From the NCBI GenBank assembly GCA_037349105.1, contig JAYJMM010000123.1, positions 7,068,001 to 7,132,000 on the forward strand: DNA of 64,000 nucleotides, in the 5' to 3' direction. Shown here piece after piece: positions 2,050 through 57,025 of this stretch. The notes beneath the pieces are model-generated. The model did not search any database and had not been told where the DNA came from. It was given only the letters and a program-made list of their open reading frames with translations. This DNA comes from Limnomonas spitsbergensis (lineage: Eukaryota; Chlorophyta; Chlorophyceae; Chlamydomonadales). Within the stretch, counting starts at the first letter, position 1. Every line of letters begins with the position of its first letter. Both the position numbers and the translations under genes were made by a program.

Positions 2050-2470
2050 CCTCGCACTCCGAAGTTCGACAGCCGGGCTGACACGCGGGACGTGGACGAG
2101 GCAGTGGCAGGTGTGAATGGGGTGTGGGGAAGGTGTGAAATTTGAGTGGGGACCCCGGACACGGAACAATGACAGCCAAGCCGACATGCGGGACGTTGAT
2201 GAGGCAGTGGCTGGTATGAACAGGGTGTGGGGAAGGTGTGAAATTTGTGTGGGGACCCCGGACACGGAACAATGACAGCCAGGCCGACACGCGGGACGCT
2301 GATGAGGCAGTGGCTGGTATGAACAGGGTGTGGGGAAGGTGTGAAATTTGTGTGGGGACTCCCGTACTCCAGATTCTGATAGCGGGGTCGACATGCGGGA
2401 TGTGGAGGTGGCAGTGGCTGGTATGAACAGGGTGTGGGGAAGGTGTGGAACTTTAGCGGGGGCCCTCTGC
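2050..2470. repeat. Minisatellite, about 103-bp unit
   Basis: The core GGTGTGGGGAAGGTGTG recurs at 2,121, 2,224, 2,327 and 2,431, giving spacings of 103, 103 and 104 bp. Units also share GATGAGGCAGTGGC. The array ends about 70 bp before the gag start of element 1 and occupies the place where its 5' LTR and leader would be expected. No 5' LTR is visible. Confidence 0.88.
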
Positions 2471-2540
2471 CCAGGAGTATGACAGCTGCCGTGGCTTTCT
2501 CTCTGCCTTCCATCAGTCCCAAGGGGAGTCATCAGAAACT

Positions 2541-4136
2541 ATGGTGGGACTGCGGGAGCTGCAGAAACGCGGCAACCCACAAGCCACAACCGCGCAGGCC
2601 GCCTCGGTAGGGCAGCCACGGGCTGACCTAGCCGCCAAGGTGGAGCCGCCAGATCCGCGCGGGGGAATACAGGCGCCAAGGGGAATCCCGCCTAGGCCAG
2701 ATCTGCACAGGATGAAACAGGCGAGGCCGCCCCGTATCCCAACAGAGGAAGCAAGAGAAGCATCGACATACGGCACACCCCAGTCCAGGTTCCCCGCTAG
2801 CGCAGACAGGCAAAGGCAAGAGGCCGTAGCCGAAGGCGACAGCAAGGAAAAGAAGGACAGTGGCCAGGCTGGCAGCCTTTACGGGTACTTCAACAACCCG
2901 GAGTGGACGCCTATCCAGGGGGAACGGCGCCCGGCAGAGGGAGAACGCTCGGGGAGCGTAAGCCAGCCAGGTCCGGCGGAACAGCCAAGAGAGCTCCTAC
3001 CAATCGGGTGGGCAGACGTCATGCAATGGGCAGCACGGCTGTGGCAGCAGGTGTGCTCCAGGTGCTTCGCCCACCTCAGTGATCAGACCCAGGCCATCGA
3101 GGAGTTCCAAAGCCACCACCTGGCGGAATGGGCGACAAAGGCCCTTATGGGCATCCCCCACACGGGGCAGGACAGGGCAACGCTGCTGGCAGCCCTACGC
3201 AGGGTGTCCAGGGGAGCAGCAGGGCCAGAGGCGGCCCTAGCTGTCAAAGCCTTCGCCGATGAGTGGTGCAAAGGCACGGCAGGGGATCAGGAAGAGCCCG
3301 AATCGGAGCAAGGGGAGCTCGAGGAGTGGGAAGGGTTCGAGGCATCCAGACTGCAGCCAGACGACCGCATGGAGGTGCGAAGATGGCAGGAACAGTCAGA
3401 AGGAACCGCACCAGCTGCAAGCCAAGCCAGGTGGGAGCGCCTGGAGGCCAGCAGTGAGCACAGTCTCCGGAACCAGCGACTGGACGTAGGGCGCAGGGCC
3501 AGACCCAGCAGCCCAGCGGCCAGCGAGCAGCCAAGGACAACCAGCTTGCAGCAGGGCTCGGTGCCAAGAAGGGCCAGCAGGCAGGAATCCCACGACCTGC
3601 TGCGCATCGTGGATCATACGGAACACAGCGGCCAAGAGGGCCAGGTGGACCACATTGCTGAGTTCCTACGGGGACGAGCAGCACATTCGCAAGGCAGGCC
3701 GGAGAGAAAGAGCCAAGGCCACAGCCAAGGAAGGCAGATTTTGCAGGAAATCAATCCAGCAGGCCCCACCGGGGGAGGCTGCCAGCAAAGGCAGGAAAGC
3801 AGGGACAACGGCCTGTCCGCTTCCGAAGCAAGGGAGTACACTGGTGGAACGCAACCCAGCAGGCACGGCAGTTACCAGCCCAGCAGGCAGGCGGAGTCAG
3901 ACGAGGATAGGCACCCGGACCCAGCGATGCAGCCTTCGGAGTGCGGCAGCCGCCCCAGAAGCATGGCAAGCGAGAGACCATATGGGGGCGGGCAGTCCCA
4001 GCGGAGTGCAGACCGCAGAGACCAACGGGACCAGCGCAGGCCAAGAGCGGCGGCGGCGGATCTGGCTCAGATCCCAGCAAATCAGACTCGGAGGACGCGG
4101 AGGGCCGCCGCCCAGGCTCCAGCAGGGAATCCATGA
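2541..4136 (+). CDS. gag: Gag N-terminal region, element 1
   Basis: A 531-codon open frame, rich in Gln, Arg, Ser and Pro. Its best-conserved part (about residues 150-250) reads GWADVMQWAARLW, then SDQTQAIEEFQSHHLAEW, then GIPHTGQDRATLLAALR. Clearly similar segments occur in element 2 (about 49,150-49,470, - strand) and element 3 (about 62,640-62,930). The tail after residue 330 is low-complexity. The capsid half of Gag follows in a different frame and overlaps this one for about 480 bp. A short acidic linker that matches element 2 lies in the third frame at about 4,030-4,130. The start is the first ATG after the minisatellite. Specific function is unknown; it is probably structural or nucleic-acid binding. 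Confidence 0.75.
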   Translation: MVGLRELQKRGNPQATTAQAASVGQPRADLAAKVEPPDPRGGIQAPRGIPPRPDLHRMKQARPPRIPTEEAREASTYGTPQSRFPASADRQRQEAVAEGDSKEKKDSGQAGSLYGYFNNPEWTPIQGERRPAEGERSGSVSQPGPAEQPRELLPIGWADVMQWAARLWQQVCSRCFAHLSDQTQAIEEFQSHHLAEWATKALMGIPHTGQDRATLLAALRRVSRGAAGPEAALAVKAFADEWCKGTAGDQEEPESEQGELEEWEGFEASRLQPDDRMEVRRWQEQSEGTAPAASQARWERLEASSEHSLRNQRLDVGRRARPSSPAASEQPRTTSLQQGSVPRRASRQESHDLLRIVDHTEHSGQEGQVDHIAEFLRGRAAHSQGRPERKSQGHSQGRQILQEINPAGPTGGGCQQRQESRDNGLSASEAREYTGGTQPSRHGSYQPSRQAESDEDRHPDPAMQPSECGSRPRSMASERPYGGGQSQRSADRRDQRDQRRPRAAAADLAQIPANQTRRTRRAAAQAPAGNP

Positions 4137-5283
4137 GACAAAAGGGAAAAGGATAGCCCTGGAGCAGGCGGAGACGCACATACAGCTGCAGAAACAGATG
4201 ATCATGCAGCTGGCAGGGGGAAAACGGTTCACCAGGATCCCCACTATCCAGGGCAACGTGCCAGTGCTGGACATGTCCCAGCCAGGGTCAGTCGCAGCCA
4301 GGCAATACTGCCAGGCCTGCAGCTCGTGGGGCTCGCACAACCGCCTGGATTTATCTGACGAGCCGCCAGCCCTGGCAGTGGTGGCAGGAGAAATTGCGGG
4401 ATCGTGCCAGTCACCCTCAGCCATGGCTCTGTTGGTCCGCTCATTGGTGGGCATGTGGACAGCCAAGCCAGCCTGCGTGGGGCCGCTGGTGGTCGCCATA
4501 CGATCAGCACCCCAAGGAGACAAAGCCTCCCGGGAGGTCGAGCGGATCCAGGAGGCGTGGACGGCCCCGGCAGTCGGGCCACCCAGCGAGGTATCCCTGC
4601 TCACCCTGTGGATCAGGGTGATCCAAAAGGAGGTGGGAAAGCCAACCTCAGACGAGAGGGCAGCGGTTGCCGGACTCAAGCTGGGTGTCAAAACCACCTT
4701 GGACCCAGGCGTCAAGCCGGAGGAAACCGTGGAGGCATTCGCCCACAGGATCATGTCCACAGCAGAGCTGCTGCAAATCTCCAGAGACGCAGTGGACCAC
4801 TTTGGCAGGAGGCATTCGGTGGCCCACATGTTCTACAAAGGACTGCCGGGAGCAGTCAGAGTGAAACTAACAGCATTTATCATGACCGTGCCAGGGTACT
4901 TGCACATGACAGACGAGGGCCAGGTGGAGGTCCTGACGCAGACGGTGCTGCTGTGGGAGAGGTTCGCCCTGGAAATGGGGGACCTAGCTGCCATGGACAC
5001 CAGGCAAGGACCGGGAGACCACCAGCAGCGGAGCCAGGGGGAGCAGCAGGCAGGTGGCGGCAGACGAGATAGGCCCAGCCAGTGGGAAGCCCGGTCTAGA
5101 GGGGATGGGCCAGGAGTTGCGCCTTACCAGAACAGCAACCAGCCCGCCAGGAAGGCAGGCAGGGCCAAGGGCGTCACGTGGGCCGACCAAGCCACAGCCT
5201 TGACGACCAGCGCCCACAGCACTGGGGGCGCCCCCAAGGCCTGCTTCCAATGCGGCAGCCTGGACCAGCTGGCAAGGGACTGA
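3655..5283 (+). CDS. gag: Gag capsid and nucleocapsid region, element 1
   Basis: The part downstream of about 4,135 is coding by homology. A stretch with NVPVLDMSQPGS and SDEPPALAVVAGEI is followed by a Ty3/gypsy-like capsid segment (TVEAFAHRIMSTAELL, HMFYKGLPGAVRVKL). At the end is the beginning of a CCHC zinc knuckle, CFQCGSLDQLARD. There the usual His is Gln and the last Cys codon has become TGA at 5,281-5,283. After that TGA the same frame stays open to 7,689, so gag and protease would be one polyprotein without the stop. The capsid would form the virus-like particle; the knuckle would bind genomic RNA. Confidence 0.8.
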   Translation: MLSSYGDEQHIRKAGRRERAKATAKEGRFCRKSIQQAPPGEAASKGRKAGTTACPLPKQGSTLVERNPAGTAVTSPAGRRSQTRIGTRTQRCSLRSAAAAPEAWQARDHMGAGSPSGVQTAETNGTSAGQERRRRIWLRSQQIRLGGRGGPPPRLQQGIHETKGKRIALEQAETHIQLQKQMIMQLAGGKRFTRIPTIQGNVPVLDMSQPGSVAARQYCQACSSWGSHNRLDLSDEPPALAVVAGEIAGSCQSPSAMALLVRSLVGMWTAKPACVGPLVVAIRSAPQGDKASREVERIQEAWTAPAVGPPSEVSLLTLWIRVIQKEVGKPTSDERAAVAGLKLGVKTTLDPGVKPEETVEAFAHRIMSTAELLQISRDAVDHFGRRHSVAHMFYKGLPGAVRVKLTAFIMTVPGYLHMTDEGQVEVLTQTVLLWERFALEMGDLAAMDTRQGPGDHQQRSQGEQQAGGGRRDRPSQWEARSRGDGPGVAPYQNSNQPARKAGRAKGVTWADQATALTTSAHSTGGAPKACFQCGSLDQLARD

Positions 5284-7691: not shown

Positions 7692-8449
7692 AATGGAGAT
7701 CAACAGCCGAGGAGCCAGGGGAGTACAAGCGGATCAGGTGGACGCCACTGGAGGTCTCTGCCCAGGGCAGGACCGACAGGACCCTCGCACCTCAGAAGAG
7801 CGCATGCTACAAGTGCGGGGGAATTGGCCACCTCGCCTACGAGTGCAACCAGGCGCAGCCCTGGCGGCCCAGCAGCAGGGGCGAAAGCCGGGCGCAAGCC
7901 CCGGACGGCCCAGGGCACAGCAGCTTCAGGCAGGAGGAGCCGCCTAGCAGCAGCCAGCAGCGAATCCGCCTCCGCGACCTGTTCGAGGCAGCCAAGGACG
8001 AGCTATTCGACGTGTGGGCAGCCAGGCAGGCAGGCACCCCACCCCCAGACCATCTGCCAGGACCGCCAGAAGAATTCAGGTGGGCTGGCAAAGGAACACA
8101 TGGGTGCTTCGCCACCATCCCCAGGGGGCACGACCCAGGGTTCGACGAGCATGACACCTGGTTTGAACAGGAGTGGGATGACACATACCTAGAGGGGCAG
8201 GAAGAGCAGGCGCGGCAACCATTGGCCCCTCACGAGGGTTACGAGTCTGAGCCAGGGTCAGACCCAGAGCGGATGACCGCTGAGGCGCATGAAGGAGAAG
8301 TGCCCCAGCAAATCCACCATTGGAGGTTGGCAGTTGAGGCAATAGCCACCAACGACCTTCTGACCATGCCTATAGACTCCCCTAAAAGCACAGCCCACGC
8401 CCTGGAGCTCGTGGACTACCTGAGGCGCATGGGAGCGCCAGCCCCGTAG
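7692..8449 (+). CDS. Zinc-knuckle protein segment, element 1
   Basis: An open frame one base off the preceding one; it is open from 6,857 but coding is plausible only after about 7,690. It holds a classic CCHC zinc knuckle, CYKCGGIGHLAYEC, at about 7,807-7,850. This is followed by a Ser/Gln-rich stretch and an acidic region. The knuckle is the form found in retroviral-type nucleocapsids. The frame ends at a TAG at 8,447-8,449. I infer that this was part of the same polyprotein and that the frame change is a decay lesion or lost intron. Confidence 0.6.
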
Positions 8450-10881: not shown

Positions 10882-11639
10882 GACAATTCGTTGCCCAGCG
10901 AGACAGGCAGCGGCTTGAGGAAGAGGCACCGTGGACGGTCCATCAGGACGTGGCCGAGACCAGGAGTAGCCGCATCGAGCTCAGCCTGCGTTTTAGGCTG
11001 CGCATGATCCCGGAGCCAGACCCCGACCCCAGGATGCAGGGGCGCAACCAAGCAGTTGAGGAGCTACGGCAGGCGTTCCAAGTCCGACTGCGGGCCCACA
11101 TCAGCGAGAGGCACGGCGCAGCACCTGCCCAGCCGCTGGAGGGCCCAGCAGGGGGGGCGAGCATGGAGCCACCAGGGGTCCCGCGGCACGCCAGCTTCGG
11201 GACAGCCAACGGAACGAGGACCTGCCCGGAGCACGCTTCGGCCCAGCTGCCAGTACCAGAAAGGGAGCAAGGAGCGGGCAGCCAAGGCCAGCCCCGCGAG
11301 GGCATCAGCGGGGTTTCGGGCCGCCCAAGCGGGACCGCCAGCTCCAGCCCAAGGGGCACCAAGCCTTGCGCAGGATGCGACCAGGCCCGCGCAGAAGAGC
11401 GCATGGTCTGGTGCGACGCATGCGGAACAGCGTGGCACGACCTGTGCATGAGGACCCCGCGGACAGTGGCAGCCAGGGTGTGCCAGTTCTGCGTGATCCC
11501 CAGGACCGTGCAGCCCAGCTGCTTGGGATGTGGAGAGAGCCTGGGCCCAGCAGGTCAGCCCAGCAGAAGATGCTGCCCGTGCCACGCCACAGCCTGCAGC
11601 ACCTGCATGGACGAGCCTGGCGTCGGTGGTAGCCGGTGA
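10860..11639 (+). CDS. PHD finger segment (internal), element 1
   Basis: This frame carries an amphipathic stretch (VEELRQAFQVRLRAHI) and a low-complexity spacer. It then has a PHD-type zinc finger at about 11,367-11,505: CAGC, WCDACGTAWHDLC and VCQFC supply a C4-H-C3 ligand set. More Cys pairs follow (CLGC, CCPCHATACSTC), suggesting an extended zinc cluster. PHD fingers usually read histone H3 tails, which would let the polyprotein contact chromatin. A TGA at 11,637-11,639 interrupts the frame, which otherwise continues into two zinc knuckles. Confidence 0.7.
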   Translation, partial: EQWADELRQFVAQRDRQRLEEEAPWTVHQDVAETRSSRIELSLRFRLRMIPEPDPDPRMQGRNQAVEELRQAFQVRLRAHISERHGAAPAQPLEGPAGGASMEPPGVPRHASFGTANGTRTCPEHASAQLPVPEREQGAGSQGQPREGISGVSGRPSGTASSSPRGTKPCAGCDQARAEERMVWCDACGTAWHDLCMRTPRTVAARVCQFCVIPRTVQPSCLGCGESLGPAGQPSRRCCPCHATACSTCMDEPGVGGSR

Positions 11640-13352: not shown

Positions 13353-14276
13353 GGAGGGCCCATCAAGTTTGCGGACAACTCGGTCGTAGCGGCCAAGAAG
13401 TGTGCCGAGACGGGCCTGTGGTCAGACCACCGCATTGCGCATGACATGAGGAGGATGAACCTCCACACTGCCAAGCAGGAGTTTGCCATCCCCAGGATGG
13501 AGACTATCTTTCAGAACCTAGGCACAGCTAAAGTGTTTAGCAAGGTGGAACTGAGGCCAGGATTCATGCAGATCCCCATCAAGGTCGAGGACCAGCCTAA
13601 AACAGCTTTTTGGATGGGCCCAGAACTCTGGATGTACACGAAGTTGAACTTTGGGCTGCGCAACAGGCCTCCCTTCTTCCAGCGTATGATGGAAGAAGAG
13701 ATCGCCAGAGCACATCAGGCATGTGGAACTCATGCTGGACATGCTCCACGGGGTGGGGCTGAGAGCACACCCTGACAAGTCCCTGTTTGGGTGTGCTACG
13801 GTTGAGTACCTCGGCCACAACGTCTCGGCCCAAGGGCTCACACCGCACGCAGCCAAAATAGCGGCGGTCATAGCCCTGCCTGAACCCGCATCGTTCAAAA
13901 ACATTCAGGAGGTCATGGGATTCCTGAACTTCTACCGGTGCTACATCCCGGATTTCTCCAAAAAGGCCGCATGCATCAACGCCATGCTTGTCAAGGGGGT
14001 CCCGTTTGTGTGGGGCCCCGAGCAGGCCCAGGCGTTTCAGCTGATCAAAACTGAGATGTGCGAGGGCGGCAGGGTGCTGCGCAGGCCGGACTACAGCGGA
14101 ACGGGGCCTGATGGCCTGGGGCCACCAAGGCCGTTCCTGCTGCACACCGACTTCTCTAAACAGGGCATAGGGGCGGTGCTGGGGCAGTGTGACGACAGCG
14201 GCAGGGAGTACATGGTAGCCTGCACCTCCCGTTCCCTGAACAAAACGAGAAGAACTACTCGTCGTTCCAGGGGGAA
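13353..14276 (+). pseudogene. pol: Reverse transcriptase core, defective, element 1
   Basis: The first part (frame of 12,273) shows SDHRIAHDMRRMN, VFSKVELRPGFMQIP and LNFGLRNRPPFFQRMM, the fingers/palm motifs of Ty3/gypsy RT. The catalytic Asp of motif A is Glu here (KVE for KLD). Around 13,720 the sequence jumps to VELMLDMLHGVGLRAHPDKS in another frame. The block that should hold the YxDD active site is missing. LNFYRCYIPDFSK and FLLHTDFSKQGIGAVLGQ follow, the RT connection and start of RNase H. With the metal-binding residues lost, this copy cannot reverse transcribe. Confidence 0.85.
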
Positions 14277-14600
14277 ATGCTTGCCGCAGTGTACGCCGCC
14301 CGCACATACCGCCATATGCTCTTTGGGTGCAAGGTGCATTTGGTCACGGACCACGAACCCCTCACCTACCTCATGGATAATCAGGCCCTGGTGGGGCAGC
14401 ACGCCCGTTGGGCGCTCATGCTCCAAGAACTTGACATTACCATTGTCCACCGGTCAGGGGCTTGCCACCAGAACGCAGATATCCCGTCTAGGTCACCCCT
14501 CCCGTCCTCTGATGACCGCACAAGGGCGCGGCTAGATGTAGTCGCCCCCGAGCCACAGGACCCGAGTGGGGTTGCCAGCGGGTTGCAGGTCGCTATGCTC
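14277..14600 (+). pseudogene. pol: RNase H domain, element 1
   Basis: After another frame change near 14,260, MLAAVYAARTYRHMLFG, HLVTDHEPLTYLMDN and QELDITIVHRSGACHQNADI follow. These are the helix, TDH and C-terminal motifs of Ty3/gypsy RNase H (RT_RNaseH_2 type). RNase H removes the RNA template during reverse transcription. The domain itself looks complete, but it is separated from its N-terminal strand by the frameshift. The frame runs on to 14,822 without further recognisable content. Confidence 0.8.
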
Positions 14601-14849: not shown

Positions 14850-15960
14850 GCTCGACCCCGGCCCACCTCCACGCAGGGGTCGATACGGCTTGCTTACCGA
14901 TAGAGGCGGTGCACGCCCTGGAAAAGGAGGGAGTGGTCCTGTTCGAGCCCTTCGGAGGCATGTGCTCTGGGCTTGAGATGGTGCTTAGGGCAGGCATCCC
15001 AGTCACACAGTATCTGTATGCAGACACCAGTGCCACCATGCGGGAGATCGCGGGAGGCAGGCTGGTGCAGCTGCACAGGCAGTAACCGCTGCTGTTCCCA
15101 GCGCCGGCCTTCAAGGGGGCGTTCAGGACACTGCCCCAGGACGTGTACTACATTACTGCCCAACACTTCATAGAAGCTGGGGCCCAGCAGGGTCGCCAGT
15201 GGTTTATGGTGGCCGGATGGGAATGCCACGACTTGTCGTCCGCCGGCAAGGGCAAGGGGCTCGAAGTGGACCGGAGCAAGTCTTTCTTCCCGCTCATCCG
15301 GCTGCTCGGCTCTTTGCAGATCCTGCAGAAGGCCAAGCCCAGGCATACCTGATTGAGAATGTCGCTATGCAGTTAAATCAGAGGAGCAAGAAGGCTAGCG
15401 TAGAGGCTTTCAGCGAAGTGTGCAGGATTCTAGGCAGGCCATCCCTTTTTGATGCGGCTTAAGTGGGCTCCTATGCCTACCGCACGCGCAACTACTGGGG
15501 CAACCTGGCACCAGCTGCAGACATTGAGTTTGTTATCCAGGCATCACATAGGCCACACGACGGTATTGTGGATGACATTCTGGACGAGGGTAGTAGGGCC
15601 CAGGTCGTGGCCTGCCCCGATAACGGAGGGTACCGCATCAACGTGTCCAGACAACCAAGGAGGGCGCTGCCCTGCCTCATGGCCACCCCCGCATCCTACG
15701 CATTTAAAAAACGGACAGATTGGCCTGGTGTTCAGGCCTTTGGGGGACCTGCAGGAGCCAAACGCCAACGAGAGGGAGAGAGCCATGAGGTACGCAGTTG
15801 GGTCCACTCCGCCTCGCCCAGACTTTCCTGAGAAGGATAGGAGGGCCGCCTTGGGCAGGTGCATGGATGCTTGGGCCCTCGAGGCTTGGCTCACCGTAGC
15901 ACTTGAGGTGGCCAAGATCACCCTAAAGGAGCTGGCTCGCAGGGCCCGTTTACCAGGCCC
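14850..15960 (+). pseudogene. C5-cytosine DNA methyltransferase domain inside pol, element 1
   Basis: Motifs of C5-cytosine methyltransferases appear in order. LFEPFGGMCSGLEM (about 14,938) is the SAM-binding motif I. GWECHDLSSAGKGKGL (about 15,217) is motif IV, with the catalytic Cys kept but the usual Pro before it replaced by Glu. LIENVA (about 15,351) is motif VI. GSYAYRTRNYW (about 15,466) fits motif VIII. A late NERERAMRYAVGSTP (about 15,770) resembles the motif IX/X region. Stops at 15,083 (TAA), 15,350 (TGA) and 15,460 (TAA) and frame changes near 15,340 and in the A-run near 15,705 inactivate it. It sits between RNase H and integrase. A working copy would transfer methyl groups to cytosine, perhaps on the element's own DNA. 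Confidence 0.75.
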
Positions 15961-17488
15961 AGAGCACGACCCTGCTATCGGTATGACCCTGACGTCCACA
16001 CATTGCGCCCTCGCTACTGCAGGCGAAGCATGCTCAGGCGAGGGGGAGGTGGCAGCAACGTATCGGCAGTGCCTGGGGGGGTCTGCAGCAGCAGACTGGG
16101 CGGATGCCGCCCAGGAACCAGGTGGGCAGCCAGATCCAGGACCAGATCCCGTCCGGTTCACTCCTGACGACGCAGGGGAAGTCATGGACCCACCAGGGTG
16201 CGCAGCCGGGCCTGCAGCCCGGGTGGACGTGTGGACAGACGAGCCAGTCCTGCAATACCTCCACCTGAAAGTGCATCCCCCTGGGGCAGAGACAGGAGAA
16301 CAGGCCAGGGTGCAGCGTAGAGCTGCCCCTTTCCAGTGGGAACCAGAGAGGGGGGGCGTGCTGATGAGGCTGATGCCAGACGGGCGGCGGTGTGTAGTCC
16401 CCATGCCCGAGGACAAGCAGGCAGTGATCAAGGAAGCACACACTAGCACAGGCCATTTCGGCAGCCACCGCATGGCCTTCATGATCTTGCAACAGCACTG
16501 GTGGAGAGGACTTCGGGCAGCAGTCAGAAAGGCTGTCCATGAGTGCGGGGTGTGCGACAAGGCCAGGGCGTCCACGTTCAATCACACGCAGCCCGGCCTA
16601 CACCCACTCCCTATCGAGGGTTTATTTTTCCGCTGGGGTGTGGATCTGTGCGGTCCGTTCACCACCACGCCTAGAGGAAACCGATATGTCATGGTGTGTG
16701 TGGATCACTACTCCAAGTGGGTAGAACTGATCCCTATCCCCAGCAAGGCGTCCGACGTGACGGCCTTGGCCTTCCAAAACGTGGTCGCACGGTTTGGGGG
16801 ATGCGCAGAAGTAGTCACCGATCAAGGGACCGAGTTCCAGGGAGAATTCCAGGACATGTTGCTGGATTGTTTCATTGACCATCGCACCACCTCTGCCAAC
16901 CACCCCCAGGCGGATGGGCTGTCCGAAAGGGTCGTCCAGACCCTCAAGACGGGCCTACGCAAGTGCTGCGGGGAGGGGAGCAGCGACGACTCATGGGACA
17001 GGATGGTCCCGTGGGTAGCACTGGGCTTCCGGTGCTCGCCTCAGCAGGCCACGCGCATGGCACCCTACGAAGTACTGTATGGGCAGAAGCCGGTGTTCCC
17101 CTCCAAGGTCGGAGCGGACCTATGGAGCACAGCGCGGGTAGCAACGGTGGAGGAGGCAGCAGACTTGCTCCTCGCCAGAGTGGCCAGGATCAAGAAGGCC
17201 CTCCCGGTCGCGGGCGAGCACCTCAAGATTGAACAGCACCTGGACAAGTTGCGCTACGCCAGGATCCGCGGAGGGGGATATGTCCCCCAAGTCAGGCGGT
17301 TCACCGTAGGGGACTACGTGTACGTTCAGTACGCTTCAGAGCGGCGCAGCCTCGACCCCAAGGCCATGCCAGAAATCCTGCGGGGGCAGCGGCTGGGGGA
17401 GACGGGGGCGCTGGTGTTGGAGGGAGCCGATGGCCTGACCGTAACGGGAGCGCAGTCAATTGCTCCCCATGCCACCTCCCCAACCTGA
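15708..17488 (+). CDS. int: Integrase (Ty3/gypsy type), element 1
   Basis: One uninterrupted frame. The HHCC zinc domain is at about 16,435-16,560 (HTSTGHFGSH ... CGVCDKA). The catalytic core has GVDLCGPF (first Asp), VVTDQGTEFQGEF (second Asp) and ADGLSERVVQTLK (Glu), giving the DDE triad at about 16,640-16,940. The C-terminal part has FTVGDYVYVQ and a PEILRGQRLGETGALVLEG stretch similar to the GPY/F module. Integrase inserts the cDNA into the host genome. The upstream part of this frame is the methyltransferase C-terminus and a linker. It is the best-preserved enzyme in the element. It ends at TGA 17,486-17,488, just before a PHD finger in another frame. Confidence 0.88.
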
Positions 17489-18039
17489 AAGGCAAGGTGG
17501 ATTTCGGCACCACCAGGCCCAACATCAGCCTGTCGTGCGAAGTCTGCCGCCTCCCCGACCGAGGGGAGGTCATGCTCCTGTGTGACGCCTGCAACACCGG
17601 CTGGCACATGGACTGCCTCACGCCAGCGCTGTCTGCAATACCCGAGGGCGACTGGATGTGCCCCAAGTGCAAGTCAGAACCTGGGCCGGGCCGAGAAGAG
17701 GACCCAACCGCAGGGGCGATGCCCAGCAGCCCAGCCCACCGCGAGGAGGCGCCCAGGGCGGCCAGGGCAGCAGCCAGAGCAGCCCTGGAAGCTGGGGCAA
17801 TGGACAAGCCAGAAGTGGAGGTCATGGCCACCAACCCAGCCACTAAGCAAATGGAGCGGGGCATCGCCAGACCCATGCCCAACGGGCTGTACGACATCTC
17901 ATACACCACGGGCAGGGGAGAGGCCAACATCACTCCCAAGGCGGTCCAGCGAAGGGCTAACGCGGCCATAGACGCAGCAAGAGCAGAAGAAGAGACAGCC
18001 GACAAGGGGCAGACAGCCAGGAAGGACAGGGAGGGATAG
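17449..18039 (+). CDS. C-terminal PHD finger, element 1
   Basis: In the frame one base before that of integrase, CSPCHLPNLKGKVD leads into a clean C4-H-C3 PHD finger at about 17,530-17,675: CEVC, LLCDACNTGWHMDC, WMCPKC. An Ala/Arg/Glu-rich helical tail follows to a TAG at 18,037-18,039. If the single frameshift near 17,450 is a lesion, the finger was the C-terminus of integrase. That is the position chromodomains occupy in chromoviruses. PHD fingers commonly bind methylated or unmodified histone H3, so a role in choosing integration sites is inferred. Confidence 0.8.
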   Translation, partial: SAVNCSPCHLPNLKGKVDFGTTRPNISLSCEVCRLPDRGEVMLLCDACNTGWHMDCLTPALSAIPEGDWMCPKCKSEPGPGREEDPTAGAMPSSPAHREEAPRAARAAARAALEAGAMDKPEVEVMATNPATKQMERGIARPMPNGLYDISYTTGRGEANITPKAVQRRANAAIDAARAEEETADKGQTARKDREG

Positions 18040-19156: not shown

Positions 19157-19388
19157 GAGTAAAAGTAGAGGCGGCACCCACCGCTAGGGTCGCCCGGGTA
19201 GGCCAACTTTCCCTCTTATACGGTACGCGGTACCTAGTTTCCCCTTAACAGCCCTTGTACCTCCGCAGTGTAGTACAAGGCGCACGTGTGTACATGTGTT
19301 GAACCATAGTTGTGAGTAGTCTGAGCCTCTCTAAGGCAGTACTGACAGCTTCCACCATTTTGGCACGGTTACTGCTTTATGGTGCGAC
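19157..19388 (+). repeat. Terminal block of element 1 (LTR-associated)
   Basis: It begins GGCGAGTAAAAGTAGAGG and ends TTACTGCTTTATGGTGCGACA. Near-identical reverse-complement blocks lie at 44,529-44,772, 44,910-45,158 and 45,789-46,034, each next to LTR sequence. The ACA end fits an LTR-type terminus. It marks the likely 3' limit of element 1. Confidence 0.6.
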
Positions 19389-20073
19389 AATTGGCTTGCT
19401 AGATTGCTGAGGGCTGCTTTTTCCATCTCTGTGTGCACACATCCCATGTCTTTTTGTGCTTTGCTCAACCCGATCTCAGCTTCAGTCCATGCTGCCTCCG
19501 CCTCTACCATGGCGGCTTCCCCATGTCCCCCTAGACGGAGGCATCGCCCCCATCCCTGGGTCATTTGGCCAATCCGACATGCAGACATGGCCTTCCATGT
19601 GGCCCACATCAGGGCTGTCTTTGATGGATTGGAATTCACTCCAAACCTGTCTGATTGCTATGATGTCTGGTGATTCAGAGAGCCTGAGAGTAGCTCATTA
19701 AGACTGCCCACCCAATTTGAGCACCATTCCCCACTCCCGAGGCTGCAAATTTGGGGCAAAGGTGGCTTGTCAGGAAGCCATGCCCCTTGCCCCATGCAGC
19801 CCCTCAGTCATGCAAGCTCCAATATCACTGCCACTGAGTTCCAGAATGCCTCAAGTCAGGTGTCCACTCTTTATTCACACATCTTGATGTTCATGTCCTT
19901 TATTCCAGGCCCCCCTTCTTATCTGAGCTGAGCCAGCCAGATCTGCCGAGGACTGGTTTTGCGAGAGGATGGAAAAAACAGCACCGGTGGTTTCAGAGCC
20001 AGAACCCTAGGCTTTACATCAGGTAATACTTCAGCTATGGAGGCCAGCATTGCAATATAACATCCTCAAAAAA
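19389..20073. other. Intergenic flank of wall-protein gene; left part of segmental duplication
   Basis: From 19,533 this matches 36,799 onward. The short open frames in both copies differ by indels, so I do not call a gene. The pentamer AACAT at 20,059-20,063 is the unoccupied target of the solo LTR that sits in the other copy at 37,334-37,815. Confidence 0.6.
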
Positions 20074-22416
20074 TTAGGGCGCACTTGCGAATATGACCAC
20101 GCTGCCTAGGGTAGAACCGGTGCAGGTTGCCACATTAGAGGCACCAGCGGGAAATATGTAAGACGACCCGCCGCCCCCATGTTGGTATGTAGAATTAGAA
20201 CCGTCCACTCCCGAGTACCCGCCACCCCCGCCGCACGACCCATTGGCACATCCATTGCCACCACCTCCAAAACCCCCAAAACCCCCAAAACCATGACTAT
20301 CAGAGCCACCAGACCCTCCCGACACCAGTGATACGCCCCCTGATCCTTGGGACCCGTCACCATCGACTCCGCTGCTGTTGAGGCCTCCCCCACCGGAACC
20401 ACAGCCACTTGCGATGCCTCCCCGCCCTAGGTCAGAGGTCTTAGGGAAGCACAATTCTGTGGTCGCAAACTGGGTGAGGGAGGCATAGCAGCCGCAGCTT
20501 CCACCGCCTCCTCCGCCGGCAATGAGCAGAGTGTCACCGCCAAAAATCTGCACCAAGGAAGCGCCGCCGCCGCCCACAGATCCAGCAGACCCATACTGCC
20601 CAACCATCACAGCCAGGATGGTGTCAGAAAGCAGGTAGAAGTCCGCCTGAACTATAGCACCATTGGCGTTGTTGGAGGCACCGCCCTTAGCGCCTGAAGT
20701 GACAATTGTGTAGTTTCCGCTTGCAATGACCTTGAAAAATTGGATTCCTTCCGACGAGTTTTGGTAGGTGACGATGCTGCTTGTCAGAAGAGCGTACTCA
20801 GTGGTGCATTGTTCTAATGTGGGGCCGGTGGGGCCGATCTGGCCACATGCAGTCATGGTCACAGCATGGTCTGGGAAGGAGGGTTGGGCCAGGCAAGTGG
20901 GTAGGATCTCACATGGGGACAGAGGGGCTGGAGGGGAAGGAGAGGGGGGAGGCGGGGAGGGGGGAGGAGGAGGGCTCGGCGATGGGGGCAGGGGGGGGGA
21001 GGGTTGGGGAGAGGGGGGGGAAGGATTTGGAGGGCTAAAGATGAAGGTGGGAGGGTGGGGAGGGGAAGGTGGAGGGGCAGGAGGAAAGGGAGGGGAGGGT
21101 TGAGGTGGGATGGGCGACGGCTGTGGAGGCAATGGGGGAGGAGAAGGAGGGGGCTCTGGCGATGGTGGTGGAGGGGGGAGTGGAGTGGGGGGGGCGGGAA
21201 GAAGTGGAGAAGGAGGAGAGGGGGGGAGCGGCATGGGGAGGAAGGGGAGGGAAGGTTTGCTTGACGGTATCTGTGGAGGGACCGGGATAGGTGGTGGGGG
21301 AGGTGAAAACAAAAATCCAGGAGGGTTCGGAGGTGGTGAGGGTGGGGTGGAGGGTGGGAGCGGTGAAGGCGGAGAGGGAGGTGGCGGAGAAGGAGGAAAT
21401 TGAGCAATTCGCTGGCCAAACATAGACGACTTGCGGTTGCTGTCCTTAGGATTGAAAGCATCGTTGGGCCACCACTTGTCGCCAAACCAGGATGTGTATG
21501 TCCAAAAGGTTATGGGGAGGCAGGTGATAAAAGTGGTGCAGTGATCTTTTTCCCAGAAAAGAACAGGGTTCATTGATGGGGATCTCTGAAAGAAGAGAAG
21601 GCTGCCGGACATGCCCAGGGAGACGCAGCCATGGAACTCAACTATCACATAGTCGGTTCCTCTTATGCCGGGGGAAAATGTGCTGGCCGACGGCCATCCA
21701 CCAGGGTAGATGGCGTGGATGAAGATGGGGGCAGAGGGGATGTTGATTGGGCTGGAGGGCACTTCGAACAGCTGGGCAAAGGCGTCCCGGGCATCGACCA
21801 TAAAGTCAGCCATGATGTTGGCGCTGGCGTTGATGGAGGCGTAGCTGACGTTGAAAGTCACCATGAAGGCCATGGTGGTGTTCTGCACTTGCGCCGAGAT
21901 ACCTGACGGTCAAGAGTGGGCATGGCAAAAAGATGAGTAAGATGAGGGAACGAGGCACATCATTCAAAGTAGTCAGCAGGTGTAGTAGGGGGCTCTCTGA
22001 CATAATTGGCAGCCAACATGTACAATAGGGGGCTATGTGATATAACTGGTGGGGCTGTTTGTCGGAGAAAGTGGTAGATATTTGGCAGGAGGGCATACAT
22101 GCACGTACACTCTTTAGTTACTAGGTGCCCAGAGCCTTTTTGAGCAGGGCCCAGAGGTGTAATGTCATTAACATGATGCATGTACACTGCATGTATGAGG
22201 TGTGACTTTGGCCAACTGCTGGGTCTACTAGGTCTACTAGGTCTACTGGATCGAAGATGACTAAGAGGTCGGTCAGACTGCGTCACGTTTGGGGTTGCGA
22301 CAGGAAAAAGTGATACGCGACACACTGGCCCAAACGCGAAACGCAACGTGTCCAAACGCCAAACGCAGACGCGGGGGGGGGGGGGGGGGGGCTTTTCTTG
22401 CACTAGCAAGCGTATG
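19533..22416. repeat. Segmental duplication, copy 1
   Basis: Sequence similarity to 36,799-40,434 runs from AGACGGAGGCATCGCC to GCACTAGCAAGCGTATG. It includes the whole large exon of a wall-protein gene and most of its intron, but not the first exon. The two copies are in the same orientation, 17.3 kb apart. Copy 2 carries one extra insertion (the solo LTR) and an expanded proline-coding minisatellite. Confidence 0.9.
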
Positions 22417-22749: not shown

Positions 22750-23259
22750 GGTAAGGGACTCTTAAGTACGGGACTCATAAGTACGTCACTGGTACTGTTC
22801 CAATAGGTGACGGCGGCGCATATTTTTGGACAGAAAAAGTGACCAAGCAGTGTAATCTCAGTGATAATAATGTACAACACCTCGCCTGGCGGTTTGAATC
22901 ACCAAGGCAGAGTCGTTGTACCTGGACAGTGCTCACCCAATACCAAAAACGTATGCCGACATACAACCGGGCATACAGTTAACGAGGATTTAAGCACGGG
23001 GGCGACGTGGCAAGGCGTATCGATTATGACTCATTGGTTGGAACATGGGCGGCGATACGGTACCGTACTGCCCACAGAGCGCAGCGACAATTCGCGTCCC
23101 CAACAGTCCAACCAGAGAGTCTCTGAGTCCAACACTAGCTCGTCCCCTAGCCCACGCGTATTTCATACACGGGAAAATGTCAAAACTGCGTCGTAAGGGA
23201 TGACTGCTTCTTACGTGTGTATGACTATATGCCTACATTTCAAGTGCACGTTGTGCATC
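22750..23259. other. Upstream region of the wall-protein gene
   Basis: This 0.5-kb stretch precedes the - strand gene and should contain its promoter. I see no TATA box or other element that I can call with confidence, and no gene. Confidence 0.4.
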
Positions 23260-23800
23260 TTTAGGGATCTCCTTCATGGGATACTGTAAAGAAAGTGTGC
23301 CTAGAAAAAAAAAAGACTAAACAAAAACGTGGGGATGTTTGCCATCTTCCCCGGGTTTCTTTTGTGTCTTTACTTTTCTTGAACCCTTCGCTCTTTTTCA
23401 GGGTTGTTTTCTTTCGGGTGCGAACAACCATCGGCGTGTCAGTGCGATAACGCACGGTATGCAACAACTTTGTCTGTCACCGGCAGGTATCGAACTCGCG
23501 ACCTCCGCTTGATCAGTACCATCGGTGCTAGGCTGAAAGCGACGGACACCAGTAACGCATTACTCACGGACGAGTACGCTGGGTGGGTGGCGGGCGAGAG
23601 GTGTCATCGCCGCGCGGCCCAAAAGCTTTTCGAACACATATCGCCTAAACCCGACGTTGGGTACAATCGAATCGCATTGCTAACACGCTGCTCTTCATCG
23701 AGGCCGCGCTTGCGGTAGAACACTTCGTGGCAACCCACCCCTGGCATGTACCTGCGGAGCGTCGATAGCCGTCGCTTCGGAATAGTAGGTTTGGTGACCG
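23260..23800 (-). repeat. tRNA-like B-box repeat, copy 1
   Basis: It begins AGGGATCTCCTTCATGGG and ends near GTCGCTTCGGAATAGTAGG. At 23,488-23,497 it carries TATCGAACTC, the complement of GAGTTCGATA. This matches the Pol III B box (GWTCRANNC) inside a T-arm-like stem. Near-identical units occur six more times in the window. Open frames in it are not conserved, so it is non-coding and SINE-like. Confidence 0.75.
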
Positions 23801-23802
23801 TA

Positions 23803-24320
23803 TTTTTAGGGATCTCCTTCATGGGAGACTTAAAAAATCGTGGGGATCTTTGGCACCTGCCCCGGGTTTCTTTTGGTGTCTTTTATTTTCTTGAACCCTT
23901 CGCTCTTTTTCAGGGTTGTTTTCTTTCGGGTGCGAACAACCATCGGCGTGTCAGTGCGATAACGCACGGTATGCAACATTTTTTTCTGCCACCGGCAGGT
24001 ATCGAACTCGCGACCTCCGCTTGACAGTATCGTCGATGCTAGGCTGTAAGCGACTGACACCAGTACGGCATTAGTCACAGACGATTACGTCGGGTGGGTG
24101 GCGGGCGAGAAATGTCATCGCCGCGCGGCCAAAAAGCTTTTCGAATTCATGTCGCCTACACCCGACGTTGGGTGCAATAGAATCGCATTGCTAATGCGCT
24201 GCTTTTGATCGAGGCCGCGCTTGCGGTAGAACACTTCGTGGCAACCCACCCCTGGCCTGTGCCTGCGGAGCGTCGTGAGCCGTCGCTTCGGCATAGAAGT
24301 TTCTCTTGCGCGTGTTTGTT
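23803..24320 (-). repeat. tRNA-like B-box repeat, copy 2
   Basis: Direct tandem neighbour of copy 1, from AGGGATCTCCTTCATGGG to GTCGCTTCGGCATAGAAG. The B-box complement is at 24,000-24,009. It is followed by an A-rich tract (24,356-24,407) that separates it from the palindromic pair. Confidence 0.75.
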
Positions 24321-24407
24321 TTTTAGGGATCTCCTTCATGGGAGACTGTAAAAAAAGTGTGCCTAGAAAAAAAAAGTGACTAAAAAAAAAAAAAAAAAAA
24401 AAAAAAA

Positions 24408-25762
24408 CACGCGCAGCAGAACCTACTATGCCGGCCTGGACGGCTCACGACGCTCAGCAGGCACCGGGCAGGCGATCAAAAGATGCGCATTGACATTGTG
24501 ATTCTAATGCACTCAACGTCGAGTGTAGGCGATATGTATTCGAAAAGTTATTGCAGTCGCTGCGAATTGGGGGCCGATGACATCTCTCGCCGGCCAACCA
24601 CCCATGCTACATACCGAAACGAGTGGCGACGCTCGGCATGCACGGCCTGGGTGGCAACGCAGTGTTATGCCGAAAGTGCGGCCTCGATTGAATGCAGCGC
24701 ATTAGCAATGTGGTTATATTTTACTCAACGTCGGGTGTAGGCGATGTGTATTCGTGAAGTTTTTTGGCCGCACGGCGATGACACCTCTCGCCCGCCACCC
24801 ACCCAATCGACCGTGACTAATGCCGTACAGGTGTCAGTCGCATACAGCCTAGCACCGACGATGCTGATTAAGCGGAGGTGGCGAGTTCGATACCTGCTGG
24901 TGTTAGAAAAAGTTGTTGCATACCGTGCGTTATCGCACTGACACGCCGATGGTTGTTCGCACCCGAAAGAAAACAACCCTGAAAAAGAGCGAAGGGTTGA
25001 AAAAGAGCGAAGGGTTGAATAAAAGTAAATACACCAAAAGAAACACGGGAAAGGTGCCAAAGATCCCCACGATTTTTTTTTTTTTTTTTTTTAGTCACTT
25101 TTTTTTTCTAGGCACACTTTTTTTACAGTCTCCCATAAAGGAGATCCCTAAAAAATCGTGGGGATTCTTGCCACCTTTCCCGGGTTTCTTTTCGTGTCTT
25201 TACTTTTCTTGAACCCTTCGCTCTTCTTCAGGGTTGTTTTCTTTCGGGTGCGAACAACCTTCGGCTAACACCAGCAGGTATCGAACTCGCGACCTCCGCT
25301 TGATCAGCATCGTCGGTGCTAGGCTGTAAGCGACTGACACCAGTACGGCATTAGTCACGGTCGATTGGGTGGGTAGCGGGCGAGAGGTGTCATCGCTGCG
25401 CGGCCAAAAAGCTTCACGAATACACATCGCCTACACCCGACGTTGAGTAAAATATAACCACATTGCTAATGCGCTGCTTTCAATCGAGGCCGCACTTGCG
25501 GCATAACAGTGCGTTGCCACCCAGGCCGTGCATGCCGAGCGTCGCCACTCGTTTCGGTATGTAGCATGGGTGGTTGGCCGGCGAGAGATGTCATCGGCCC
25601 CCAATTCGCAGCGACTGCAATAACTTTTCGAATACATATCGCCTACACTCGACGTTGAGTGCATTAGAATCACAATGCCAATGCGCATCTTTTGATCGCC
25701 TGCCCGGTGCCTGCTGAGCGTCGTGAGCTGTCCAGGCCGGCATAGTAGGTTCTGCTGCGCGT
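24408..25762. repeat. Large palindrome of two inverted B-box repeats (copies 3 and 4)
   Basis: The left arm starts CACGCGCAGCAGAACCTACT at 24,408 and the right arm ends with its complement near 25,762. The centre (about 25,070-25,150) is A/T homopolymer. B boxes lie at 24,883-24,892 (+) and 25,279-25,288 (-). The right arm lacks about 40-50 bp near 25,265 that includes the CGTGTCAGTGCGATAACGCA stretch of the left arm. A copy of the left arm recurs at 57,115-57,800. The arms are about 600-660 bp and could form a long hairpin RNA. Confidence 0.8.
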
Positions 25763-27941
25763 TTTTTTTTTTTTTTTAGTCACTTTTTTTTTCTAGGCAC
25801 ACTTTTTTTACAGTTTCCCATGAAGGAGATCCCTAAAAAGTGACTAAAAAAAGCACAAAGACGGTCACCAAACCTACTATGCCGAAGCGGCGGCTCACGA
25901 CGCATTGCATGCTTCCGCAAGCGCAAGTGCGACTTTCATGAATAGAATCAGCGTATGGCATAATGTGTAGGACTGCGACTGCAACTTGTCATTTTGTTAC
26001 ACTCAAGGAATGAGGCCTTTGTCACATTGGCGGCACTGTTGTTGCCCCGGTCTATTATTCAAGACATAAAAAAGATGTACAAGTCGTCGGTGTACGGCAA
26101 CACAGTAGATTAAAGACATAAAAAAGATGTACAAACCGACCAGCAACCGACCGTCGTCAACCTGTCCCCGCTGGCCCTCGCTCGTCACCACGACCTCGTA
26201 GTAATGTCAACATCTACATCCCTGGTGTATTTAGCTGCTGATACCTCTCATTTCTTGTCGAGTGGAAAAGCGAGGGGAAACTGTGAGTCAGAGAGTGAAC
26301 AGCGATGAATGCCAGGGAGCGTGCCTGCTACAGCTGACAGCTGAGATTCAAACTGTGTTCACACTTTTCACACTCGGCACTGCCAGCCGATGCTGCTCTG
26401 GCTCGTCGCTGCTCACAATCGCTTGTGAATACGCTTTTAATATATATTGCTCGTCGCGTCCACGGTCGCATGTCAATACGCTATGTCAATACGCAAGTGA
26501 CTAGCGATGACAGCTGTGATTCAAAATGTCCACACTCGTCACTGGCAGTCGCTGCTACTAGAATACATTATCCCGCCTGTCACGAGTTCCGTCCCATGGA
26601 ACAAAAATGGGTACACACCAAACCCATCCGATGTGCCACATCATTTGTCGTATGCATTGATTGTCATACCCAAACAAGAAGTGGTCACTGTGATACCGTA
26701 ACTGATATTGGGCATGCCCTGACAAATATGATGTCTTAGTTGCAGTTCAACCAGCTTGCCTGCAAGAAAACTGACAATCACTGGTTTTAGTGGTATGAAG
26801 CGTGCCTGAACCTTTGCCCCCTACCGTATAAGCACATTCACAGCATTTTGGAGTGCAATTCCAGCCCACATGCACAGCTTTCAGCCAACAAATAAAACAT
26901 CCCACACTTATGCAGAATTTGACATGTATTTGCAACTTCTGCCCGAATCTGGAGCACTGCAAGGCATGCACATGATCCCGCCCTCACACGCCCCGCCCGC
27001 ATGCGCACCACATGCATGCACATCTCCTGCCCACATGCACAGTGCCTGCATGCACACTCCCCTGCCCATATGCCCAACACCCCGTGTGCATCCACGTTGT
27101 TTCAATGCACAGCTCATAGCGCGAATTCACAGCCCCTGCCCTCATTCGCGGCCATCCCCATGCATTCTCAGCCCCTGACCATGAACACAACACCCATGCT
27201 TGCACATTCAGCCCCCGCTGCTCAGCACCACCGCTTGCAAATTCAGCCCCGGCAGGCACAGCAGTACATCACCCCAACACGCACATTCAGCCCTTTGCAT
27301 TGCAAGAAATGCTGAATTGCGTGTGTTGGTCTCCCCATGGGTGCGCCCCCCAGGCCCCCACCCCCTGCACAGTCCCAGATGGGCAGCCTCTCCAAGTTTT
27401 ATACATAGTGCATGTGGTGCATGGCGGAATCCGGTGGTTTTGAGAGTGGCTTACGCAGCTAGTTTTTTGAAATCTGAAATGAGACAAGTCTGAATGAAGC
27501 CATGTAAATGAAGCCACGTCAGAAATACTGCGTTCATACCAGGTCGGACCCACCAATACAAAGTGTCCCCCCCCCCATAGCCGTAAATATAACCGGGGCC
27601 TATAGCCACCATTACACGTGGTGATCAGCCACGAATTCAAAGCACCCACCCAGGAAGTCACATGCTGTACACATGATACTTAGAGGAGGCCGCGACACAA
27701 TGTGTGTGAGTGTCAATTCTCCGCAACTTGCTTAAATAAATTACAATTCCTTCTTCATAACGTGTTACCGACTCTGCTTGATCCATACATCTTACCCTGT
27801 GTGCATGAAGAGGGCATGAATGGGCAGAGCTAGAAAATTCGAACAAGTTAACGACGACGCGCAACCGGGATTTTCGGTGCGTAAAATCGTAGGACGCTGA
27901 ACATGTGGAACACCTACATCGCACAGGCAATTCGATAATCA
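25763..27941. other. 2.2 kb without a recognisable gene
   Basis: It holds a trailing piece of the B-box repeat (25,763-25,915). A duplicated AAGACATAAAAAAGATGTACAA lies at about 26,063 and 26,112. A CA/TGCA-rich stretch runs from about 26,860 to 27,310. Open frames are short, overlap on both strands and show no domain. I cannot support a gene. Confidence 0.5.
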
Positions 27942-35200: not shown

Positions 35201-35950
35201 CCCTGCCCTGCCCTGCCCTGCCCTGCCCTGCCCTGCCCTGCCCTGCCCTGCCCTGCCCTGCCCTGCCCTGCCCTGCCCTGCCCTGCCCTGCCCTGCCCTG
35301 CCCTGCCCTGCCCTGCCCTGCCCTGCCCTGCCCTGCCCTGCCCTGCCCTGCCCTGCCCTGCCCTGCCCTGCCCTGCCCTGCCCTGCCCTGCCCTGCCCTG
35401 CCCTGCCCTGCCCTGCCCTGCCCTGCCCTGCCCTGCCCTGCCCTGCCCTGCCCTGCCCTGCCCTGCCCTGCCCTGCCCTGCCCTGCCCTGCCCTGCCCTG
35501 CCCTGCCCTGCCCTGCCCTGCCCTGCCCTGCCCTGCCCTGCCCTGCCCTGCCCTGCCCTGCCCTGCCCTGCCCTGCCCTGCCCTGCCCTGCCCTGCCCTG
35601 CCCTGCCCTGCCCTGCCCTGCCCTGCCCTGCCCTGCCCTGCCCTGCCCTGCCCTGCCCTGCCCTGCCCTGCCCTGCCCTGCCCTGCCCTGCCCTGCCCTG
35701 CCCTGCCCTGCCCTGCCCTGCCCTGCCCTGCCCTGCCCTGCCCTGCCCTGCCCTGCCCTGCCCTGCCCTGCCCTGCCCTGCCCTGCCCTGCCCTGCCCTG
35801 CCCTGCCCTGCCCTGCCCTGCCCTGCCCTGCCCTGCCCTGCCCTGCCCTGCCCTGCCCTGCCCTGCCCTGCCCTGCCCTGCCCTGCCCTGCCCTGCCTTG
35901 CCCTGCCCTGCCCTGCCCTGCCCTGCCTTGCCCTGCCCTGCCCTGCCCTG
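35201..35950. repeat. Pentanucleotide array (CCCTG)150
   Basis: About 750 bp of uninterrupted CCCTG with two CCTTG variants near the right end (about 35,896 and 35,926), followed by TCCTG units. Because 5 is not a multiple of 3 and no frame has a stop, both strands are open throughout, reading PALPC or GQGRA. The array lies between the helical-repeat gene and a mariner-like fragment. Confidence 0.98.
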
Positions 35951-36715
35951 ATCTGTCCTGTCCTGTCCTGTCCTGTGGTGGTCTTCTGGCTGCTCGTGCC
36001 TGCCACAAAGTGAAGCTTGCTGATTCCCTACTTGCAGATGCCCGCATACACGTTGAGGACCAGGGGGTGATTTGGAGAGGCTTCCTCACGTACCGCTCTC
36101 TCACCCTCACCCTCCTCGCCCCAGGACACAGGCTGCACCTTCACCCCTGGGTAGGTAAATGGAAACTTCTTCCGGTCAGTGAAGAGGATGTGGCTCCAGT
36201 CCCTTCCCTTGCTGGCTTTGCAGAAGTCTAGCCGCTTATGTCGAGTTGACCCCGAAAGCTGCTTCCTAGGCGCACCCCGCAGAGCCCCATGGGAGCATAT
36301 GAGGCCCTGAAATGCAATAATTTTAGGGATGCCAATTTTGTGCTCTCGAGTAGCCATGCCTTATTTCGCTTTGCGTAGGTGTTGTACTTCCCTAGGGCAC
36401 GCCCACCATGTGTGTGCATGGTCCGGGTCACACTGATGATGTTCAAGACCTGCGAGCTTTTCTTCCGGGTACAGGGCGGGTCAGATGTATCTACACGTTT
36501 TAGGGGTACTGAGGTTTGACCCGCCGTCCCACCTGGTTCACACTAGCAGTACCAACTGCCATTTAAAGTAATCTCTCTAGGAACTGCCTCGATCGACCTG
36601 GTGTGTTGCTACATCGTCAAGTGTTGTAATCAGCTTGTCATACACGGTTTATTGAGGCATGTTGGGGTATCATTTGAATCCGAATGGCAATTGGATGCAA
36701 AAAACTGCCCGTTGG
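35951..36715 (-). mobile_element. Mariner-like element fragment, internally deleted
   Basis: On the - strand, 36,357-36,028 encodes RGAPRKQLSGSTRHKRL, DWSHILFTDRKKF and VLNVYAGIC, matching the transposase at 42,491 onward. The DNA-binding half is missing: the sequence joins ICSHGA directly to LRGAPRK, where the other copy has about 370 bp more. It too abuts the pentanucleotide array. A non-coding flank to 36,715 is shared with 42,075-42,330. Confidence 0.8.
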
Positions 36716-45786: not shown

Positions 45787-45788
45787 GC

Positions 45789-57000: not shown

Positions 57001-57025
<25 letters not shown>

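Follow-up and report, generated by a model that had tools for sequence, protein, structure and literature searches.

What is a cytosine DNA methyltransferase doing inside the pol region of a retrotransposon, and does it belong there? The question is raised by a 64,000-nucleotide stretch of the green alga Limnomonas spitsbergensis (assembly GCA_037349105.1, contig JAYJMM010000123.1, positions 7,068,001 to 7,132,000 of the forward strand). The whole stretch is called the window here, and positions are counted from its first letter. The answer that we favour, with moderate confidence, is that the window holds a dead copy of a Ty3/gypsy-type element with a DNMT3-type C5-cytosine methyltransferase (MTase) inside pol and, after the integrase, a PHD finger, and that working relatives would methylate their own complementary DNA (cDNA), with the PHD finger as a tether. 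The grounds for this are the order of the domains, the DNMT3-like sequence and fold of the MTase, its kept catalytic residues and its joint divergence with the integrase.

The methyltransferase and the element around it

The MTase is found in three pieces and two reading frames:

14,927-15,913, + strand: whole MTase domain, flanked in a Ty3/gypsy-type pol by RNase H on its 5' side and the integrase zinc domain on its 3' side
14,927-15,340, + strand: part 1, in the frame of 14,861, with motif I (LFEPFGGMCSGLE) and catalytic motif IV (GWECHDLS); family profile, domain E=6.8e-54; TAA in frame at 15,083-15,085
15,331-15,714, + strand: part 2, in a second frame, with motif VI (ENV) and motif VIII (YRTRNYWGN); family profile, domain E=4.3e-36; TAA in frame at 15,460-15,462
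15,710-15,913, + strand: part 3, C-terminal region, back in the first frame; family profile, domain E=2.1e-12

The family profile was built from 11 related proteins with the window excluded, and was run on the six-frame translation of the whole window. It matches 14,927-15,340 together with 15,710-15,913 (E=2.7e-65) and 15,331-15,714 (E=2.5e-36), with no further match in the six frames up to E=10. Since it finds all three pieces and nothing else, a chance resemblance is ruled out.

The first-pass annotation had read motifs I, IV, VI and VIII in order inside pol. The stretches that we take to be these motifs do follow in that order, and the pieces hold the motif IV cysteine, the motif VI Glu-Asn and the motif VIII Arg-x-Arg; what had not been mentioned is that a continuous reading has to shift frame twice (near 15,335 and 15,712) and to cross the two TAA stops. 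As it stands, this copy is unable to make the MTase as one protein. Because of this decay, PF00145 gives no match on the single open reading frames (ORFs) of the stretch, the best single piece reaching E=0.065. When the domain is read through with X at the stops and joins, the search that had been proposed as a check becomes significant (E=3.6e-5, 23.8 bits, cut-off 22), and a comparison of the same read-through with the PDB gives DNMT3A (E=1.4e-4).

The surrounding features of the MTase-bearing copy are the following, where the gag-only element is a sister described further below:

2,457-5,283, + strand: gag ORFs; DNA identity to the gag-only element 70.6% over 3,000-3,526 and 72.3% over 3,984-4,985
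7,802-7,849, + strand: CCHC zinc knuckle, gag-type (PF00098, 23.7 bits, cut-off 20.8)
11,367-11,489, + strand: tentative second PHD-like cysteine cluster, 5' of the reverse transcriptase (PF00628, E=9e-4, 19.7 bits, under the cut-off of 24)
13,443-13,824, + strand: reverse transcriptase remains in two frames (RVT_1, E=3.1e-5, below cut-off, and 0.052; profile positions 146-164 uncovered)
14,011-14,429, + strand: RNase H in two overlapping frames (RT_RNaseH_2, E=2.4e-12; RT_RNaseH, E=4.3e-16)
16,412-16,570, + strand: integrase zinc-binding domain H2C2 (PF17921, E=1.2e-11), within the unbroken ORF 15,434-17,488
16,634-16,906, + strand: integrase catalytic core rve (PF00665, E=6.6e-11)
17,536-17,670, + strand: PHD finger, 3' of the integrase (PF00628, E=2.3e-11), at the same place in the related proteins P0003, P0005, P0006, P0007 and P0011
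18,727-19,389, + strand: 3' non-coding end, up to a diverged B-like repeat at 19,245-19,389; 82.6% identical to 46,448-46,006 and 69% to 45,055-44,911

The pol order is thus reverse transcriptase, RNase H, MTase, integrase with H2C2 and rve, and then the PHD finger, all on the + strand, and the flanks that had been proposed for the MTase, RNase H upstream and the integrase zinc domain downstream, are borne out. By domain order, in the window as in the relatives, the element is of the Ty3/gypsy type (Metaviridae). No tyrosine recombinase was found among the Pfam matches of the 20 window ORFs scanned; what pol has is H2C2 and rve. Two more CCHC-like motifs can be read from the translation near 11.7-11.9 kb, Pfam gives no match on the gag ORFs at 2,457-5,283, and none of the frames of 13,560-13,900 shows a readable YxDD-like motif.

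Measured between the first gag ORF and the last 3' repeat that can be recognised, the copy spans at least 16.9 kb. No long terminal repeats were found on it; its 5' end coincides with the window edge or falls outside it, and on the 3' side it breaks off near 19.4-19.5 kb. The long frames upstream of the MTase carry TGA, TAG and TAA stops and the reverse transcriptase is split and incomplete. Because its long frames are broken in this way, we regard the copy as dead. An altered genetic code was considered as well, both stops within the MTase being TAA, and was rejected since the long pol and gag frames are broken by all three stops alike.

It can also be noted that a 659-base stretch of gag occurs twice in direct orientation (1-659 and 4,346-5,004) with 99.5% identity, though the surrounding element is decayed. 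It could be a recent duplication, a second insertion or an assembly effect.

Relatives and conservation

We now turn to the relatives. A first protein search, with the MTase as the scored region, gave 11 proteins at E<=1e-3 among 6985 candidates, and a second one, by alignment, gave 81 at E<=1e-10 among 7997 scored candidates. Joined, they amount to 89 distinct proteins, mostly short ones from metagenomes, and the MTase profile matches every one of them. A search with a 92-residue piece of the MTase returned five candidates, none of them significant.

Profiles built from family members for RNase H, integrase or PHD also match 20 of the 89 relatives, and in 19 of these the domains follow as RNase H, MTase, integrase, PHD. 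A Pfam scan, which is independent of the family profiles, took in 10 of the first 11 relatives. It places H2C2 in six (P0003, P0006, P0007, P0008, P0010, P0011), rve together with PHD in four of them (P0003, P0006, P0007, P0011), and RNase H in two, P0004 and P0008. P0001, P0002 and P0009 have the MTase alone. For P0005, the eleventh, the precomputed domains include rve, H2C2 and PHD. PF00145 itself scores above its cut-off in six of the ten and below it in two, and gives no match at E<=0.01 in the remaining two. In P0004, which joins RNase H to the MTase, a G-patch domain (residues 600-635, 2.7e-8) stands behind the MTase, where others have the integrase.

These results bear on the possibility that a separate MTase gene or transposon was dropped into one copy. 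In the window, the MTase and the rest of pol are indeed unconnected by single ORFs. However, in five relatives (P0003, P0005, P0006, P0007, P0011) an unbroken protein contains both MTase and integrase, and the 19 ordered relatives join the MTase to RNase H, integrase and/or PHD, contrary to an MTase confined to a single copy, which the first-pass annotation had named as one of two findings that would speak against a capture. We have rejected the separate insertion on account of the kept domain order and give it next to no probability. Judged from the sequences compared, the MTase is an old component that elements of this kind share throughout the family.

Hosts can be named for three relatives: Chlamydomonas eustigma (P0008), Tetradesmus obliquus (P0088) and Chromochloris zofingiensis (P0015, as read from the label Chrzof1). 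All three are Chlorophyceae, from two orders, in agreement with the earlier suggestion of green algae as hosts of such elements. EukProt labels are attached to five more relatives.

The catalytic residues are strongly conserved. With 11 rows of the alignment also present in the profile used for aligning, the motif IV cysteine is found in 79 of 79 covered relatives, the motif VI Glu in 75 and Asn in 73 of 76, and the two motif VIII arginines in 69 of 73 and 69 of 72, in sequences down to 35-45% identity. The MTase also diverges jointly with the integrase. For six elements the mean identity is 43.9% in the MTase and 39.9% in the integrase, the MTase being the more conserved of the two in 12 of 15 pairs. 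The identities of the two domains co-vary across the pairs (rank correlation 0.825; the 15 pairs from six elements are non-independent). Small trees of the two domains agree on the pairing of P0006 with P0007 alone (support 90 and 99).

This conservation is relevant to another alternative, namely that the MTase fold is kept as a DNA-binding or structural remnant, which binds cDNA or shapes the pol complex without catalysis. It could draw on KnitGypsy-Dnmt3, the retrotransposon of Klebsormidium nitens described by de Mendoza et al. 2018 (PMC5890265; here and below, statements from this paper refer to the portions of its text available), which gave no methylation in yeast, a result called inconclusive by its authors. 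The near-invariant cysteine and Glu, in spite of the low overall identities, argue against such a remnant, and we regard it as unlikely.

Concerning the affinity of the MTase, DNMT3A and DNMT3B are nearest both by sequence profile and by fold. A tree of 57 rows and 104 columns sets the family apart with a support of 78 and places DNMT3A with bacterial rows (support 34), the sole DNMT3 row being partial. Bacterial MTases are 20-50% identical over parts of the domain (366 of 592 stretches among the matches listed; 80 kept). A first search of IMG/VR for MTase relatives found none, and a later one found five loci at 21-27% identity. The MTases of three IMG/VR contigs (L001, L004, L005) score 73.6, 58.8 and 41.5 bits, compared to 59.0 for DNMT3A, and group together with a support of 96, so the captured MTase may be of viral source. 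Bacterial or viral contamination as an explanation of the MTase was rejected, since the IMG/VR relatives are few and weak and all bacterial and viral MTases lie far below the family.

Proposed role

From these observations we infer the activity of the MTase, its substrate and timing, the target of the PHD finger and the benefit to the element. In working relatives, the MTase would most likely travel in the pol complex and act on the double-stranded cDNA of the element itself, methylating cytosines, probably in CG, by the time of integration at the latest. A tethering of the integrase complex to chromatin whose histone H3 tails are unmodified is the most likely task of the PHD finger. The best PDB matches of the PHD profile are CHD4, KMT2D, KMT2C, fly Lid and KDM5A/B, WSTF, BAZ2B, ATXR5 and PHF21A, and several of these PHD fingers recognise H3 that is unmodified at K4. 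In this way new copies would settle in inactive chromatin, bearing from the start the mark of methylated host DNA and not treated as foreign, at the cost of low transcription. An escape of methylated cDNA from recognition as foreign has been proposed before (PMC5890265).

A number of points weigh against this picture. The copy in the window is broken, in the MTase (two frame changes, two stops), in the split and incomplete reverse transcriptase and in the upstream frames with stops of three kinds. As many as 69 of the 89 relatives are MTase-only fragments without visible neighbours, and one relative with neighbours, P0074, is an exception in having a short integrase match before the MTase instead of after it. 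Conservation was judged from protein sequences, and the target preference of the PHD finger would be carried over from general knowledge of the matched proteins. Finally, the CpG observed/expected ratio is 0.62 for the element, 0.55 for the MTase and 0.62 for the whole window, which means that no element-specific CpG depletion, as a scar of methylation, is seen relative to the window.

The same whole-window ratio fits a widely methylated host, and DNMT3-type MTases act without strong sequence specificity. Both points count for a scenario in which the MTase is directed at host DNA or at competitors, shifting host methylation or shielding against viruses, whereas the fusion into pol next to the integrase places the MTase with the cDNA. 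This scenario, which takes up an idea of PMC6338049, appears improbable to us, and self-methylation of the cDNA is the role that we retain.

A wider reading is possible but doubtful. According to it, chlorophytes host an old Ty3/gypsy lineage in which a DNMT3-type writer and a PHD reader of the type that binds unmodified H3 form a self-contained targeting-and-methylation module in pol. Selection would have maintained it from a time before Chlamydomonadales and Sphaeropleales diverged, and it might be held in common with KnitGypsy-Dnmt3 from before chlorophytes and streptophytes parted.

Sister elements and known systems

Two further related elements lie in the window:

44,911-53,789, - strand: gag-only sister element; A1 53,789-53,154, gag ORFs within 52,495-47,112, B1 46,034-45,789, A2 45,786-45,151, B2 45,156-44,911
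44,531-44,911, - strand: additional partial A (44,911-44,775, 97%) and B-like copy (44,774-44,531, 72%) beyond B2
60,294-64,000, + strand: start of a third related element, which leaves the window; A repeat 60,294-60,923, gag from about 62,165; 81.6% (A) and 75.7% (gag) identical to the gag-only element

The gag-only element reads A-coding-B-A-B, with A1 and A2 98.6% identical over 636 bases and B1 and B2 98.8% over 246 bases; because the repeats are this similar, the insertion should be recent. The additional A and B copies beyond B2 mean that a tandem duplication may be an alternative to split repeats. On the MTase-bearing copy, nothing remains of this arrangement beyond the inner 3' end and a B-like stretch that has diverged. 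The DNA identity between the two elements is 70-72% in gag and 82.6% at the 3' end. The gag-only element (to 53,861, - strand) is without the approximately 13 kb that hold reverse transcriptase, RNase H, MTase, integrase and PHD, and it would therefore depend on a full element.

Elsewhere in the window, arrays of a pentamer (TGCCC/GGCAG) lie in inverted orientation at 35,199-35,975 and 43,155-44,463, with 155 and 262 copies. They sit in longer segments that are 97-99% identical (35.2-36.7 versus 43.9-42.1 kb and 30.2-30.8 versus 42.1-41.5 kb), and an ORF with helix-turn-helix transposase domains (42,236-43,150) adjoins one of them. A protein that combines long Ser-Pro-rich stretches with a glycine-rich region is present in two copies, at 20,077-21,909 and 37,834-39,912 (both - strand), with flanking DNA 96-97% identical and a sub-threshold ALK/LTK match in the glycine-rich region (2.3e-4, second copy). 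Direct and inverted repeats clustered at poly-A/T tracts are common to 23,238-25,903 and 56,445-58,307 at 87-91%. The window scan found no tRNA genes and no Rfam families at the gathering score, and Pfam in 26.0-35.2 kb found nothing beyond a sub-threshold DnaJ match.

DNA methylation is mostly viewed as a weapon of the host against transposons, and retrotransposons with a DNMT3-type enzyme of their own reverse this. In the literature examined, the described cases are from dinoflagellates and one charophyte, Klebsormidium (PMC5890265), and a 2025 survey, in the portions available, has the same two lineages, with ChloroDNMTs carrying PWWP as a separate green-algal group (PMC12344493). We found no published account of the present chlorophyte family in the open-access literature, most subscription journals being outside its scope; as far as that literature shows, the family itself and its joint DNMT3-type MTase and PHD finger are new. 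Against this novelty stands a single sentence stating that green algae are among the organisms with Ty3/Gypsy and DIRS retrotransposons that carry adenine or cytosine methylases, the two kinds being taken together (PMC6338049). In addition, PMC5890265 cites two previous reports that connect DNMTs with reverse transcriptase; one of these, Iyer et al. 2011, may cover green algae.

In the accessible parts of two comparative studies, DNMT3 was not found in the MMETSP green algae (PMC9998398), and among the algae compared DNMT3/DRM occurred in Cyanidioschyzon and Klebsormidium only (PMC9861306). Because some relatives score below the PF00145 cut-off, proteome scans with this profile may have missed them. 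The elements would bring a DNMT3-like enzyme to algae without a detected host DNMT3, and part of the 5-methylcytosine there may stem from transposons. With a family whose active site is preserved across Chlorophyceae, in cultivable algae like Chromochloris, Tetradesmus and Chlamydomonas eustigma, what a retrotransposon gains from methylating DNA would become testable.

The closest described system is KnitGypsy-Dnmt3, which likewise has a DNMT3-related MTase inside a Gypsy-type Pol. It combines DIRS-type A-coding-B-A-B repeats with Gypsy domains (PMC5890265), an arrangement seen here on the gag-only sister. As this combination is unusual, a common origin is suggested: one old capture, inherited or passed among green algae, would make the window a further member of a described group. 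Several points count against this. The likeness is by description only, the available text mentions neither a PHD finger nor the place of Dnmt3 in Pol, and the repeats are not visible on the MTase copy itself. The hosts differ as well: a charophyte there, Chlorophyceae for the named relatives of the present family. We consider shared ancestry a serious possibility, if somewhat short of an even chance.

The other systems are more distant. SymbioDIRS-Dnmt3 of Symbiodinium also has a DNMT3-type MTase in Pol, one that methylates CG in yeast, but it uses a tyrosine recombinase instead of an H2C2/rve integrase, and SymbioLINE-Dnmt of the same genus, likewise a retrotransposon with a C5 MTase, is a long interspersed nuclear element with an orphan MTase lineage in ORF1 and no integrase (PMC5890265). 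The ChloroDNMTs of chlorophytes and charophytes, which we set beside the family by description only, are green-algal MTases too, but often with PWWP (PMC12344493).

DNMT3A and DNMT3B, the nearest solved sequences and folds, are only about 20% identical to the family, which has no ADD or PWWP beside the MTase and carries its PHD finger far off, behind the integrase. A histone-reading domain at that place is known from the chromodomain-bearing Ty3/gypsy elements (chromoviruses); here a PHD finger replaces the chromodomain and an MTase is added. DNMT3A couples its MTase to an ADD domain, which recognises unmodified H3K4. A PHD reader behind the integrase and a DNMT3-type writer ahead of it would recall this ADD-MTase pair, and if the wider reading given above is correct, a retrotransposon module rebuilds the joint work of ADD and MTase in DNMT3A.
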